DNA of 52,946 bases from Candidatus Cloacimonetes bacterium HGW-Cloacimonetes-1 (GTDB taxonomy: Bacteria; Cloacimonadota; Cloacimonadia; Cloacimonadales; Cloacimonadaceae), in the NCBI GenBank assembly GCA_002841975.1, contig PHBQ01000007.1:1-52946 (forward strand), in the 5' to 3' direction. A program made the position numbers and the translations under genes. Below are positions 1-47,815 of the stretch, in pieces (position 1 is the first letter of the stretch; every line of letters starts with the position of its first letter). The notes under the pieces are model-generated. The model saw nothing but the letters and a program-made list of their open reading frames with translations, was not told where the DNA came from and ran no database searches.

Positions 1-25
1 CACGAGGGGAGCACCCGGGATTGGA
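1..25 (-). repeat. Edge-truncated copy of dispersed 11-bp-unit GTG repeat
   Basis: Read on the minus strand, the first bases contain the unit GTGCTCCCCTC (positions 14 to 4) followed by GTG at the window edge. This is the same unit type and register as the full copies near 22571, 37731 and 46310. Only about two units are visible because the window starts inside the element. It lies upstream of the pyrimidine operon, so it is intergenic like the other copies. Confidence 0.55.
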
Positions 26-116
26 AAGAGGAAATTACTTGACCAAAACACCCAGCTGATTTTTATGACCAAAGTTAACCTTTAATCTTACCCAGAGAGG
101 TAGAAAGGAGAAGAAA

Positions 117-12284: not shown

Positions 12285-13058
12285 AGTATTTATAGATTTT
12301 CATAATGACCGTACTCCGATATTTGTCAATAGGAATTATCCCCGGATTCTTGCAAGTAAGGCGAAATCTGATGTTGGAGTACAGAACCGGTACTCTGTTT
12401 CCGGCTTACTGAGCAGCTTGCGCACGAGTCAGTCCCATGAAAGGGCAGTATTTTTCCTCTTTAGCAACACGGTTGCAATACGGAGCCAATACGGACTAAG
12501 TCCGTATTGGCTCCGTATTGAGTCCGTATTGCTAGTAAGGGCAAAAAATGGAGGTAAAACTGATGTTTCCTGAAATTGGTTGACACTGAATGTGAGGAGA
12601 ATCATGAAAGATCATGTAAGGAAAGTAGTTAGCAATACTTCGATACTCATACAATCACATCATTGTACTTCTCTTTACTGTTTTAAGTGATCTTGACGGT
12701 GTACTTTTAAAGGCACTCTCCCAATTGGTGTAAAGTAGTTCGATGAAATTGGATTCCCCCTAGTACTGATAGCCAGGGTAAAGCCCACACATAATGCCTT
12801 TGTTGGGAGTGTTGTCAGAAAATGAGGAAGGAATATCTTGACAGATATATATTCTGCAATTTATTTGAAGTTAATGAATTAATGGCGAAGACGGCTGTTA
12901 ACTGCGATGATGAACGATTTCACAGCTAACTGAGATATATGGTACTATACGAGTTTATCGATGCCTACAACTTCAAAACAAATTGTCCATTACGAAGTAG
13001 TGGTTAAGAGAGTTAGGTGCGGTAAACAAAGGGTACGATTTATCTAACAGGAGGAAAA
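12285..13058. other. Long divergent spacer without a recognisable gene
   Basis: This stretch of 774 bases lies between divergently oriented genes. It contains the 11-bp-unit palindrome at 12476-12531. A 28-codon open frame at 12604-12690 follows a good GAGGAG site but has no recognisable content. The rest (12700-13040) is AT-rich with frequent stops in all frames and may be decayed sequence or regulatory DNA for the LVIVD gene. I see no tRNA or known riboswitch. Confidence 0.6.
12476..12531. repeat. Large perfect palindrome built from 11-bp units
   Basis: The arm at 12476-12497 is perfectly complementary to the arm at 12499-12520 (22 bp, single central A). Each arm consists of two 11-bp units, CAATACGGAGC and CAATACGGACT, whose complements are GCTCCGTATTG and AGTCCGTATTG. 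A fifth unit, AGTCCGTATTG, follows directly at 12521-12531. It could extrude as a cruciform or form a very stable RNA hairpin. No T-run follows, which argues against a simple terminator. Confidence 0.9.
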
Positions 13059-22465: not shown

Positions 22466-22480
22466 AGTCAGTCAATACGT

Positions 22481-22505
22481 AGCCGGAGGATGCTGATCCT
22501 CCGCA
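22481..22505. repeat. CGGAGGAT hairpin, copy 1 of a small palindrome family
   Basis: CGGAGGAT (22484-22491), loop GCTG, ATCCTCCG (22496-22503). The surrounding bases (TAGC before, CA after) match the copy at 37840-37859, where one stem base pair is swapped from G-C to C-G with both sides changed. Confidence 0.7.
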
Positions 22506-22559
22506 AAAACTCGCCCTCACCCCAACCCTCTCCCAGAACTGGAGAGGGAGCATCCTTGC

Positions 22560-22625
22560 TCGTCTCCGAGGTGATCCCCTCGTGACTCCCTCGTGAAGCC
22601 CGGGTGGGAGCCTGGGAAGTGCCAG
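22560..22625 (+). repeat. Dispersed 11-bp-unit GTG repeat, copy A
   Basis: The units are GTGATCCCCTC (22571), GTGACTCCCTC (22582), GTGAAGCCCGG (22593), GTGGGAGCCTG (22604) and GGAAGTGCCAG (22615), each exactly 11 bases. They are preceded by TCGTCTCCGAG. Unit order and divergence are shared with the copy at 37720-37785, so the block moves or is conserved as a whole. It encodes no plausible protein. Confidence 0.8.
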
Positions 22626-22763
22626 GGTTCCATGACTCCAGTACACCGCATTTCAGCAACATAGTCATGGTGGACCCATCAGAAATCCGGAGTATATTCC
22701 AAATCAAAAGAATTGACATATTTTAGCCAAATTCGAAGTTAGCCTACAGAGGATAATACAATA

Positions 22764-27746: not shown

Positions 27747-30120
<2,374 letters not shown>

Positions 30121-36668: not shown

Positions 36669-37622
36669 CTATTTTTGAAGTTTAACTGTTAATTTCTCGA
36701 TCATATCAGCAGTCATGGTCTGAAGATCGTATTTTGCTCTCCAAAACCACTCCTTGCGTGCAGCGCTATCATCCATCGAATTGGGCCAGCTATTTGCAAT
36801 AGCTTGCTTGATGGGATCCACATCGTAATCAATCCGGAATTCCGGTATATGCTTACGGATGGCAGTGGCAATCATCTCCGGATCAAAACTCATAGCGGTG
36901 ACATTGAAGCAATTTCTGTGAATCAAGGTGCCGGGATCTGCTTCCATGAGCTGAACGGCTGCATTGAGCGCATCCGGCATATACATCATGTCCAGATATG
37001 TACCGGGACTGAGATTGCACATAAAATTCTTGTTTTTGATCGCTTCGTAATAAATCTCGACCGCGTAATCTGTGGTTCCACCACCGGGCAGAGTGACGTT
37101 TGAAATGATACCGGGATAGCGTAATCCACGGGCATCCACGCCATATTTGAGATAATAGTAGTCTCCCAGCAATTCTGCTGCAACTTTGGAAATACCGTAT
37201 ATCGTAGTCGGTCGCATAACCGTATCTTGAGGAGTGTGGTCGGGGGGTGTAGTAGGGCCAAAGGCACCGATCGAACTGGGAGTAAACACCGCTCCGCGCG
37301 TCTGTCGGGATATCTCCAGAGCATTGAACACGCAATCCATATTGATCTTCCAGGAAAGCTGGGGATTGGCCTCACCTTTGGCAGATAAAACAGCCACCAG
37401 ATTGAAGATGGTGTCAATATTGTATTTTTTGACCAGATCATACATCGCCTTGCCATCCATAGCATCCAGTACTTCAAAAGGACCGGTTTCTTTGAGTTCA
37501 GGCATTACATTATCATGCAGATCCGTTGCCACAACATATTGTGCACCATAGATATTGCGCAGAAAAGGAACCAATTCTGAGCCTATTTGTCCCGCAGCGC
37601 CAATTACCAAAATTTTCTTCAT
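36669..37622 (-). CDS. L-threonine 3-dehydrogenase, SDR (epimerase-like) type
   Basis: A 317-residue extended short-chain dehydrogenase. The NAD site ILVIGAAGQIGSEL is at 4-17; the catalytic Ser/Thr segment is FTPSSIGAFGP, and the YxxxK motif appears as YGISK. The run RGLRYPGIIS and GGGTTDYAVEI are hallmarks of the SDR-type threonine dehydrogenases that turn L-threonine into 2-amino-3-ketobutyrate, unlike the zinc-dependent Tdh. The usual partner (glycine C-acetyltransferase, kbl) is not in the window. It is the first gene of the minus-strand run to 31866. Amino acid fermentation is in keeping with the suggested lineage. Confidence 0.85.
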   Translation of the reverse strand: MKKILVIGAAGQIGSELVPFLRNIYGAQYVVATDLHDNVMPELKETGPFEVLDAMDGKAMYDLVKKYNIDTIFNLVAVLSAKGEANPQLSWKINMDCVFNALEISRQTRGAVFTPSSIGAFGPTTPPDHTPQDTVMRPTTIYGISKVAAELLGDYYYLKYGVDARGLRYPGIISNVTLPGGGTTDYAVEIYYEAIKNKNFMCNLSPGTYLDMMYMPDALNAAVQLMEADPGTLIHRNCFNVTAMSFDPEMIATAIRKHIPEFRIDYDVDPIKQAIANSWPNSMDDSAARKEWFWRAKYDLQTMTADMIEKLTVKLQK

Positions 37623-37719
37623 TGAGACTACTCCATATTCATAATATTATTTTCATAACCCAAATATAGATCCAAACAGAGTTGTCAATGCTTTTATCGT
37701 CTGGCGAGAGTCCCCTTAC

Positions 37720-37785
37720 TCAAATCTCAGGTGATTCCCTTGTGCTTCCCTCGTGAAGCCCTTGTGGGAGCCTGGGAATTGCCAC
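37720..37785 (+). repeat. Dispersed 11-bp-unit GTG repeat, copy B
   Basis: The units are GTGATTCCCTT (37731), GTGCTTCCCTC (37742), GTGAAGCCCTT (37753), GTGGGAGCCTG (37764) and GGAATTGCCAC (37775). The fourth unit is identical to that of copy A and the others differ by one to three bases. The block is preceded by TCAAATCTCAG. Confidence 0.8.
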
Positions 37786-37836
37786 GCAAGTTCCACGCCA
37801 TTATCTGCGATTGCAATATGTAGAGCAGGACGCCAT

Positions 37837-37861
37837 AGCCGGAGCATGCCGATGCTCCGCA
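37837..37861. repeat. CGGAGCAT hairpin, copy 2 of a small palindrome family
   Basis: CGGAGCAT (37840-37847), loop GCCG, ATGCTCCG (37852-37859). Flanks TAGC and CA are shared with copy 1. The paired change G-C to C-G relative to copy 1 preserves the stem. Confidence 0.7.
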
Positions 37862-37996: not shown

Positions 37997-39331
37997 TCAG
38001 TCAAAAATACTATATAAGTGTTTGATATCCTTCAGTTTGATTACTTTTGTTTTGGCTTTATACTTGGCAAAGGCGGAAATATAGATCTTTTCATATCCGA
38101 GCTTCATGGCTTCATTGACACGGGATTCGAGCTGGGGTACGGGACGAATCTCACCATTGAGACCTACTTCTCCGATAAATATGGAATTTTCGGGCAGTGC
38201 TTGATCTTTGAGGCTGGATAATATCGCTGCTAGGATTGGCAAGTCCAGCCCGGGGTCTATCGTTTTGATGCCGCCGGTGAGGTTTATAAAGACATCGCTG
38301 GAGCGCAGGTAAAGTGCCAGGTTCTTCTCCAAAACTGCCAGCAGCATGGCAAGCCGCTTTTGGTCTAGTCCTACGACCACCCGTTGGGGAGTGCCGTAGT
38401 TGGAAGCAGTAGCTAGGGATTGCACTTCTACCACAAAGGAGCGAGTGCCTTCGAGGACACAACCGATGGCGGTGCCAATCTGTTGGGATTCATGAGTCAT
38501 AAAAATGTTATTGGGATTGGTGACCTGGATCAGGCCGTTACTGGTCATTTCAAAGAGTCCGATCTCGTTTGTCGAGCCAAAGCGGTTTTTCACAGCACGC
38601 AGGATTTTATACTGATTGCGGAGTTCACCTTCAAAATAGAGCACGGTATCGACCATGTGCTCGATGATCTTGGGGCCGGCAACCATGCCTTCCTTGGTGA
38701 CATGACCCACCATAAACATCGGAATGTTCATCTGTTTGGCATTGCGGATCAGACGGTTGCAGCTTTCACGGAGTTGGTTGACGCTGCCGGGAATGGAATC
38801 CAGAGCAGCGAGACTGATCGATTGGATGGAATCGATGATCACGATATCCGGCTTGTTGGTATTGATCATGTCTATGATATGATCCGTGTCGTTGGTGCAG
38901 AGCAACCAGACGTTATTACTCACTATTTTGAGCCGTTCGCTGCGATGTTGGATCTGTTCTACGCTCTCTTCACCGGAGCAATAGAGGACTTTTTTGGAGG
39001 CATCACCCATCCATTGGGAGAGCTGGAGCATCAGAGTGGACTTGCCAATTCCCGGCTCACCGCCTATTAAAACGACCATTCCGGAAACGATACCGCCACC
39101 TAAGACCAGATCAAACTCGGCAATGTTGGTGCATGCCCGGGAAATATCTACTTTTTGGAGGTCAATGATTCTTTCGGGATTGGGGTGAGAGGGGAGAAGC
39201 GTATTCAAACCCTTCTTGGAAGACAGTTTACCGCTATCCTTCAGTGTATCCCAGCTTCCGCAATTGGGGCATTTACCGCTCCATTTGGTAGTTTCGAATC
39301 CGCAGTCACTGCAAAAAAACGATGTTGCCAT
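37997..39331 (-). CDS. radA: DNA repair protein RadA
   Basis: This RecA-like ATPase and branch-migration helicase acts in recombinational repair. The 444 residues have a C4 zinc finger (C7, C10, C21, C24: CSDC, CPNC), Walker A GGEPGIGKSTL, a Walker B hydrophobic strand ending IVIDSIQ, the RadA-specific KNRFGSTNEIG motif, and a Lon-like C-terminal domain (INLTGGIKTIDPGLDLPI). All parts are in the usual order. ATG 39331 has AGGAG 7 bases upstream; the ATG at 39337 sits too close to that SD. Confidence 0.94.
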   Translation of the reverse strand: MATSFFCSDCGFETTKWSGKCPNCGSWDTLKDSGKLSSKKGLNTLLPSHPNPERIIDLQKVDISRACTNIAEFDLVLGGGIVSGMVVLIGGEPGIGKSTLMLQLSQWMGDASKKVLYCSGEESVEQIQHRSERLKIVSNNVWLLCTNDTDHIIDMINTNKPDIVIIDSIQSISLAALDSIPGSVNQLRESCNRLIRNAKQMNIPMFMVGHVTKEGMVAGPKIIEHMVDTVLYFEGELRNQYKILRAVKNRFGSTNEIGLFEMTSNGLIQVTNPNNIFMTHESQQIGTAIGCVLEGTRSFVVEVQSLATASNYGTPQRVVVGLDQKRLAMLLAVLEKNLALYLRSSDVFINLTGGIKTIDPGLDLPILAAILSSLKDQALPENSIFIGEVGLNGEIRPVPQLESRVNEAMKLGYEKIYISAFAKYKAKTKVIKLKDIKHLYSIFD

Positions 39332-39407
39332 GCTCATGCTCCTGTGCTTTTTGGCAATGTTTGGAGATAGCTTAAAACTGGCAAGAACTAATTTGCATAC
39401 AAGATGT

Positions 39408-45954: not shown

Positions 45955-46030
45955 TGGTGGAGCATAGCAGGATCGAACTGCTGACCTCATGACTGCCAGT
46001 CATGCGCTCTCCCAGCTGAGCTAATGCCCC
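45955..46030 (-). tRNA. tRNA-Ala (anticodon GGC), CCA encoded
   Basis: On the minus strand the 76 bases fold into a full cloverleaf. The acceptor GGGGCAT pairs with ATGCTCC, then discriminator A and an encoded CCA. The D arm has AGCTCAGCTGGGAGAGC, the anticodon stem CATGA/TCATG holds loop CTGGCAG with anticodon GGC, and the T arm has CAGCAGTTCGATCCTGCTA. GGC reads GCC and GCU alanine codons. A TTGACA box lies 58 bases upstream (46093-46088) without a good -10. Confidence 0.95.
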
Positions 46031-46255
46031 ATGGGGATATTCACACTGTGTAATTTGTATGATCAAATCATCCGGAACCACTATTTTTGTCAAGATCAAA
46101 CTTATCTGAACTGATGCAAATTAGTACGCCAGATGTTTAAAGTAATATTAGATCATTACTTACAGGTCGATACTCAGAGTAGGGAGGACCGCCTTTCGAG
46201 TACCAGCCGGCTCTTTGCCACTTACTATAAACCGGGATACTACCGTAGAGCTTGC

Positions 46256-46320
46256 CTAGCGCTCCCCTTGTCGCCACAAGGGCTTCACCCGGGGTTCACG
46301 AGGGAATCACCTCGGATTGA
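46256..46320 (-). repeat. Dispersed 11-bp-unit GTG repeat, copy C
   Basis: Read on the minus strand: GTGATTCCCTC (46310-46300), GTGAACCCCGG (46299-46289), GTGAAGCCCTT (46288-46278), GTGGCGACAAG (46277-46267), GGGAGCGCTAG (46266-46256), preceded by TCAATCCGAG. The first three units are close to copies A and B; the last two have diverged. Confidence 0.75.
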
Positions 46321-46326
46321 AGTAGG

Positions 46327-46343
46327 GGCGAATTGGGTTCGCC
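46327..46343. repeat. Short hairpin beside copy C
   Basis: GGCGAA (46327-46332), loop TTGGG, TTCGCC (46338-46343). It lies 41 bases from the gltX stop; no T-run follows on the minus strand. Confidence 0.45.
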
Positions 46344-46384
46344 TGGATTATCCGTTGTGTGGCAGTTAGATGCGTTTAAAAAAA

Positions 46385-47815
46385 TTAGCGGATTGCTCTA
46401 CCCAAGCGGAGTATGACTTCAGCGTCACCCAGGATATCAAAAGTGGCGGGCATATCCGGGCCATGAGCTTGACCGATCAAAGCCAGACGCAGCGGAGTGT
46501 AGTAGTTTTTACCTTTAATCTGCAACGCTGCCATTCCGTCGGAGACCAGCTTATGGACTTTGTCCCGATCGAGCGGCAGATTTGCCTGCACGGATTCCAG
46601 GAACCACTTCAAGACGGTTTGAGAAATCTCGTTGTCCAGGATATCCTGATCTGCTGCATCCAGATCTTTGGTGAGGTAAAAAATCTTGCTGTATTCCACA
46701 ATCTCCGGCAGGAGGGTAATACGTTCACGAGCAATATCTATAATCTTGAGTAGTTTAACATGGTCAGACGTATCTATTCCACTGCTTTCAAAATAGGGGT
46801 GACAACGTTCGGCGATCGTATCCAGGGGCAGACTGCGGATATACTGACCGTTCATCCAGTCCAATTTTGTGAGATCGAACACTGCTCCGGATTTGCTGAC
46901 GCGTTCGATGCTAAATTCTTGGCACAGTTCTTCCAGAGTATAGATCTCTCTATCTTCGGAAGCATGCCAACCCAAGAGTGCAATGAAATTGATCAGTGCT
47001 TCCTTGAGGTAGCCCTTTTGGATATAGCTTTCAACGGAGACATCGTTCATGCGTTTGCTGAGTTTACTGCGGTCGGTATTGAGGATTAATGGTAAATGAA
47101 TCCAGATCGGTGCTTCCCAGCCCAAGCACTGATATAGCCAGATGTGTTTGGGGGTGCTGGACAGCCATTCTTCACCGCGGATGACGTGCGATATCTGCAT
47201 AAAATGGTCATCCACAACAGCAGCTAAATGATAGGTAGGGAAGCCATCGGATTTGACTATGACTTGGTCGTCGGATTGGGCAGCATCCATCTCCACGGTT
47301 CCACGAATCAGGTCGTCAAAACGGAATTTGTGTTCATCAGGCATTTTCAGACGGATTACATGAGTCTCGTTGGCTGCCAGTTTGGCAGACACTTCGGCGG
47401 CTGAGAGCTGCAGACAACGTCGATCGTATTTTACGAATTCCTTGCGTTCCTGCTGTCCCAAACGCATGGTGTCAAGTGTCTCGGAGCTACAAAAACAATG
47501 GTAGGCATGTCCACTCTTGAGGAGCAGGTCTGCATGCTGATGATACAGTTCCAGACGTTCTGATTGGACGTAGGGGCCATATTCACCACCGGTGTGAGGT
47601 CCTTCATCGATGATCAAATCTAACTGCGTGAGAGAGGATATCAAGTTTTCCACTGCTCCTTCGACTAGGCGGTTACGATCTGTATCTTCTATTCTAAGGA
47701 CAAATTTGCCATTGTACTTTTTGGCAAAGAGGAAATCATACAAAGCTGTGCGTAATCCACCAATATGCAAATATCCGGTGGGGCTGGGTGCAAATCTGAC
47801 TCTGGTTTCTTTCAT
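46385..47815 (-). CDS. gltX: Glutamyl-tRNA synthetase
   Basis: This class Ic synthetase charges tRNA-Glu (and possibly tRNA-Gln in lineages using the amidotransferase route). It has 476 residues. The HIGH motif reads HIGG within FAPSPTGYLHIGGLRTALY; KMSKS reads KLSKR in NTDRSKLSKRM; the DTDRNR and GFPTYHLA segments are standard. A C-terminal helical anticodon-binding domain follows. GGAG stands 6 bases before the ATG. It comes 21 bases after the hypothetical gene at 47837-48391 and closes the maf-ytcJ-hypothetical-gltX run. Confidence 0.93.
   Translation of the reverse strand: MKETRVRFAPSPTGYLHIGGLRTALYDFLFAKKYNGKFVLRIEDTDRNRLVEGAVENLISSLTQLDLIIDEGPHTGGEYGPYVQSERLELYHQHADLLLKSGHAYHCFCSSETLDTMRLGQQERKEFVKYDRRCLQLSAAEVSAKLAANETHVIRLKMPDEHKFRFDDLIRGTVEMDAAQSDDQVIVKSDGFPTYHLAAVVDDHFMQISHVIRGEEWLSSTPKHIWLYQCLGWEAPIWIHLPLILNTDRSKLSKRMNDVSVESYIQKGYLKEALINFIALLGWHASEDREIYTLEELCQEFSIERVSKSGAVFDLTKLDWMNGQYIRSLPLDTIAERCHPYFESSGIDTSDHVKLLKIIDIARERITLLPEIVEYSKIFYLTKDLDAADQDILDNEISQTVLKWFLESVQANLPLDRDKVHKLVSDGMAALQIKGKNYYTPLRLALIGQAHGPDMPATFDILGDAEVILRLGRAIR

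Follow-up and report, generated by a model that had tools for sequence, protein, structure and literature searches.

Nine scanned ORFs in the window, the whole stretch of 52,946 nucleotides of HGW-Cloacimonetes-1 contig PHBQ01000007.1 that was analysed, encode ordinary housekeeping or unassigned proteins. A gene at 29173-30120 encodes a phage-integrase-family (Xer-like) recombinase, one of only two in the genome. The first-pass annotation had recorded, at 22560-22625 and in blocks at three further places, a dispersed repeat of five consecutive 11-bp units. The repeat is real and all four blocks are present, but the element is larger than first described, as the five units comprise only the left arm and the centre of an imperfect palindrome of ~105 bp. 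This element, referred to here as a family A array, occupies positions 22558-22664 on the forward strand, where the left units CCGAGGTGATC, CCCTCGTGACT, CCCTCGTGAAG and CCCGGGTGGGA are followed by a degenerate inverted right arm. Further family A arrays lie at 37718-37824 (forward strand), between ORFs 36669-37622 and 37997-39337 (both reverse strand), at 46217-46323 (reverse strand), between a tRNA gene (45958-46030) and ORF 46385-47815 (reverse strand), and at 1-30 (reverse strand), where the contig end cuts the array and leaves only its outer left arm (CCAATCCCGGGTGCTCCCCTCGTG). Close to two of the arrays (22480-22505 and 37833-37860) there is another small palindromic repeat, TAGCCGGAGnATGCnGATnCTCCGC, and a hairpin repeat of the form GGGCGAA..TTCGCCCCTAC often adjoins family A arrays at their left end, at 46323-46345 in the window and on other HGW-Cloacimonetes-1 contigs. 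At 14.6 kb on contig C64 (14523-14700), the hairpin repeat flanks a family A array on both sides.

In an alignment of the 51 family A copies from a 770-kb sample of the HGW-Cloacimonetes-1 genome, three to four direct 11-bp units are followed by a 7-8-bp centre and then by the same units in inverted, more degenerate form, with the consensus CCTTACTCCAATCCGAGGTGATCCCCTCGTGATTCCCTCGTGAAGCCC-TTGTCG(C)GAC-GAGGGAATCGCGAGGGAAGCACCACGC.. and the word CTCGTGAttCC. As judged by the number of hits per element, the 2.78-Mb genome includes ~120 copies; scaling from the 770-kb sample gives a higher count, but the sampled contigs were picked for having hits. With no more than one mismatch allowed, CTCGTGANNCCCNNGTG has 234 matches in the genome and a reversed control pattern has 2, and chance similarity is thus excluded. 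The 11-bp phase had been described as exact, and 44 of 50 copies indeed carry GT at four 11-bp steps in a row, while every one of the 50 has it at no fewer than three. The location of the repeat only in spacers was also essentially right: with simple ORFs used as gene models, 41 copies lie outside ORFs of at least 80 aa, nine overlap ORFs (mostly of 84-150 aa, with one open-ended frame of 413 codons) and one is at a contig end. The orientation of the arrays agrees with GC skew in 25 of 51 cases, and hence does not follow replication polarity. The first-pass annotation knew of no named family with this structure, and neither a match in Rfam nor a paper describing the element in the open-licence PubMed Central literature was found. 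Of the three outcomes that had been named as counting against the repeat, namely the remnant of a gene, a chance similarity and a match to a known element, none was borne out.

Pairwise identity of the family A copies over 112 bp ranges from 58% (1st percentile) to 82% (maximum), with a median of 68%, so no copy is a recent duplicate. Nevertheless, GT is invariant in units 3 and 4 (50 of 50 copies) and almost so in units 1 and 2, and CCC is present in 92-100% of copies in units 2-4, with adjacent positions close to random. Apart from the copy at the contig end, no truncated family A copy was found among the hits. Given copies that are diverged yet intact, with near-invariant GT and CCC positions, purifying selection probably acts on individual family A copies. 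Selection on self-copying could leave the same signature as selection exerted by the host.

A detector independent of the word, which combines lag-11 self-similarity (tandem) with dyad symmetry, identified 42 arrays at lag 11 in the HGW-Cloacimonetes-1 sample and 0, 0, 1 and 0 at lags 9, 10, 12 and 13, respectively. No array was detected in 150 kb of E. coli DNA or in shuffled HGW-Cloacimonetes-1 DNA, and four were detected in 309 kb mostly from other families of the order, two of them on a contig chosen for its hits. The word-blind search revealed two further word families, B and C, in HGW-Cloacimonetes-1. The copies of family B (TGTGGCTATGA) are near-identical and are near-perfect palindromes, as are the CTAATGATTCC arrays of genome G025. 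Family C, with the unit TCCGTATTGnn, is found at ~12 places in the genome, including 12446-12550 of the window, where an array missed by the first-pass annotation consists of two 52-nt arms that are 79% complementary and 1 nt apart, an architecture matching that of family A. The related genomes examined each include several words, and the words found in other genera of the family are CTAGTGATCCC, ATNTGCTYTTG, CATGTGATGCC, CGGGTAGTTCC, CTCGAGATTCC, ATTGCTTACCC, ATTCCCATATC and ATTACGCATGA, among others. The array at position 107300 of G025 contig C30 is chimeric, its left and right arms being built of different words.

Similar units were also seen in other settings. Outside Cloacimonadota, three tandem 11-bp GTGATTCCCTC units are present in Pseudoalteromonas piscicida (L139:2480-2504). 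A phage contig (L161), with terminase, head and tail genes assigned by PHROGs, includes the dyad array (CTGGTGATTCC)4 at 12785-12855, directly upstream of the start of the terminase small subunit gene, a position at which packaging sites are often located. On a viral contig (L297:95-135), two copies of the family B word separate the 3' end of a tRNA from a tyrosine integrase gene, and this pair resembles integrase arm sites. Tyrosine integrases, considered as partners of the arrays because of a phage att-like site, were rejected, as there are only two per genome.

The arrays are regularly spaced in four genomes. In HGW-Cloacimonetes-1, none of the 45 gaps between arrays of all words is shorter than 5 kb, against 16 expected, and the mean is 12.7 kb. 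For family A alone, the smallest of 34 gaps is 6.4 kb and none is below 6 kb (10.7-15.4 expected), which holds when placement is confined to intergenic spacers (0 of 5000 permutations). Arrays of families B and C fall into the gaps left by family A, all 11 lying 6.4 kb or more from any other array where 7.15 were expected to be closer, and the coefficient of variation (CV) of the spacing drops from 0.41 to 0.30 with their inclusion. The arrays of the window are thus found at 0 (A), 12.5 (C), 22.6 (A), 37.8 (A) and 46.3 kb (A). The three other genomes were assessed by tests not conditioned on spacers, and under a uniform null 0 of 23 gaps in G025 and 0 of 19 in G009 are shorter than 5 kb, against 8.2 and 4.2 expected, respectively. 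In HGW-Cloacimonetes-2 (G007), 123 arrays of two words form 109 gaps, only one of which is shorter than 5 kb (34.9 expected), and the smallest gap between arrays of different words is 5.7 kb. The first word leaves whole contigs of G007 empty and the second, found by chance beside a Y1 gene, fills them, a prediction of the spaced-array reading that was confirmed. Words are regionally clustered in G007 (C1 against C2), where the word is the same for 84 of 109 neighbours, against 56 expected; clustering along the chromosome was not evident by eye in G009. As arrays of different sequence repel one another, homologous recombination is excluded as the cause.

The spacing in HGW-Cloacimonetes-1 is more regular than simple exclusion with random placement (P 0.006), and its CV of 0.30 falls between that of jammed random filling (0.21) and that of exclusion with exponential gaps (0.43). 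A sharp lower limit of ~4-6.5 kb is seen in three genomes. The upper limit is less sharp, as gaps for the two mapped words in G007 C2 reach 86 kb. This asymmetry fits an exclusion mechanism no worse than it fits a need for anchors.

Congeners of G009 (~70-80% nucleotide identity) have different words in orthologous spacers in three of eight comparable cases, and the remaining five arrays sit elsewhere. Breakpoints between these genomes are frequent, and their spacers are too diverged for empty-site alignment. An association of arrays with orthologous genes (odds ratio 3.3, P 5e-4) was reduced when spacer length was matched (odds ratio 1.8, P 0.19), and conservation of position is therefore not claimed. 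In three genera (G000 C47, G025 C30 and G007 L080), the DNA polymerase III alpha gene, identified by eye from its N-terminal sequence, has an array upstream of it, with a different word in each genus.

Imperfect palindromes in spacers, near-perfect in family B and some G025 arrays, might represent transcription terminators, structured RNAs or processing hairpins. This explanation is already largely refuted and highly improbable, as RNAalifold found 0 conserved pairs over 62 family-A-type copies from several genomes, folding z-scores for the three full copies of the window are near zero relative to shuffles, Rfam gives no match and the arrays show no bias to convergent or 3' spacers. Given no consensus pairing and no excess folding, the family A pattern is read as DNA. 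At the level of DNA, the arrays could be high-affinity gyrase or supercoil-tip sites, in which the 11-bp phasing would bend DNA at the scale of topological domains. Bacterial chromosomes form domains of ~10 kb, and an 11-bp repeat matches underwound DNA. The gyrase sites BIME-2 and Mu SGS are likewise intergenic, helically phased and ~100-130 bp long, and the E. coli gyrase motif extends over ~130 bp with phased G/C content around an aperiodic centre (PMC6379681). However, the arrays have no 36-bp aperiodic centre, the phase of A/T and G/C about the dyad varies from one word family to the next with no common A/T phase, and family A fixes individual letters rather than composition alone, so a role as gyrase sites is very unlikely. 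REPINs, which are inverted REP doublets moved by RAYT (Y1) transposases with one RAYT per word, provide a less remote but still unlikely precedent. Like these, the arrays are extragenic inverted doublets of ~100 bp with >100 copies and several families per genome, and Y1_Tnp genes, several of RAYT length, are present in all eight genomes tested. About 8 of the 27 Y1 genes have an array no more than 1 kb away, but the density of arrays alone predicts about 4.6, and the link is weak. G029 and G015 each have a single Y1 gene yet several words, family A lacks conserved hairpin pairing, and when the terminal consensus sequences of families A and B and of G007 were read by eye, neither a GTAG nor a CGTC tag was seen. 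Beyond 400 bp, the placement of REPINs in extragenic DNA does not deviate from random (PMC3116915), whereas the arrays are regularly spaced, have 11-bp direct units in each arm and keep a constant architecture despite the turnover of words.

More weight is given to an origin as selfish miniature elements, though it too is doubtful. Here, one transposition machinery would act on shared outer ends with variable interiors and would not insert near residents, so that elements would fill the chromosome as parked cars fill a kerb, through target immunity of the kind known for Mu, Tn7 and Tn3. Ends are shared across words in G025, where CCTTGCT is found near 9 of 26 arrays (0.5 expected), and also in G007. 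Terminal inverted repeats are present in G007 (CTTCCTGCTTGAA..TTCAAAGGGGAAG) and in family B (CTTCCTTACTTAG..CTAAGTAAGGAAG), the near-identical copies of which have spread recently. The word turnover in congeners, the sharp lower spacing limit and the intermediate CV are consistent with this origin. MITEs and the Tn3-derived TIMEs are also short, non-coding, dispersed and bounded by inverted ends, and Tn3-type immunity could yield spacing like that of the arrays. However, the arrays include internal 11-bp units and lack 38-bp Tn3 ends, and the target duplications that the first-pass annotation had proposed to look for are absent at the 41 G007 copies with both ends recognised. No solitary ends and no autonomous parent element were seen, the search for a parent having covered phage-integrase-type genes, which number only two in each of four genomes tested. 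Neutral decay does not explain intact old family A copies with invariant unit positions, and immunity acting at insertion would fail to keep old copies apart after rearrangement, given the frequent breakpoints between congeners.

The intactness of old copies and the regularity beyond simple exclusion favour selection for spaced anchors, and the sharp lower limit and the long gaps in G007 favour target immunity via partly shared ends. Selection for anchors is rated higher, and we give a probability of roughly 0.4 to the reading in which dyad arrays of putative protein sites, spread by a mobile mechanism, anchor the chromosome at regular intervals. A layout and an even spacing that are kept despite change of word suggest a chromosome-wide set of putative protein-binding sites. 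The first-pass annotation had favoured a mobile or protein-binding element with an 11-base step close to one helical turn; this is compatible with all findings and in part supported by them, but it had not anticipated that the element is a dyad, that one genome has several word families, that words turn over between relatives or that the spacing is regular. Under the anchor reading, each element would consist of ~6-8 putative binding sites of 11 bp in a dyad-symmetric arrangement, and a DNA-binding protein, one per word or from a related family, would load side by side on the units. The fixed 11-bp register, opposed arms and letter-specific units point to such loading, as for ParR on parC. The bound proteins would face nearly one side of the helix, and the two opposed arms would give a symmetric nucleoprotein knot. 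Knots every ~6-25 kb may then serve as chromosome-wide anchors, either of loops or supercoil domains or as a distributed centromere-like lattice. A mobile mechanism acting on the partly shared outer ends (CTTCC..GGAAG type) may carry new words from one spacer to another, and arrays too near a resident one would be lost or never established. Families with different words would thereby replace one another with the spacing kept.

For ParR of plasmid R1, two 11-bp repeats are the minimum required, and different plasmid families have different words (PMC9426499). The arrays share this layout of two or more tandem 11-bp direct repeats, cooperatively bound in parC. However, parC is one site beside parMR, whereas the arrays form >100 dyads chromosome-wide that adjoin unrelated genes. 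The matS sites of MatP, SlmA and Noc sites, Chi and DNA uptake sequences are dispersed and have a chromosome-wide role, but are single short motifs with one word per genome. Uptake words change between species.

As far as found, no bacterium has been described in which non-coding elements of unrelated sequence families are regularly spaced over the whole chromosome. The detector based on lag 11 and dyad symmetry is applicable to any genome. A slightly more tentative proposal, extended to the phylum, is that Cloacimonadota may possess a lattice of interchangeable dyad arrays, about one per 10 kb, in which the word is free and geometry and spacing are selected; it would represent a form of distributed anchoring (centromere-like or domain-boundary) or of self-tagging unlike any described in bacteria. 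From the spacing it follows that either chromosome organisation in this hard-to-culture phylum obeys a structural code or transposition immunity is shared across element families, and both implications make testable what sets the ~10-kb organisation of bacterial chromosomes.
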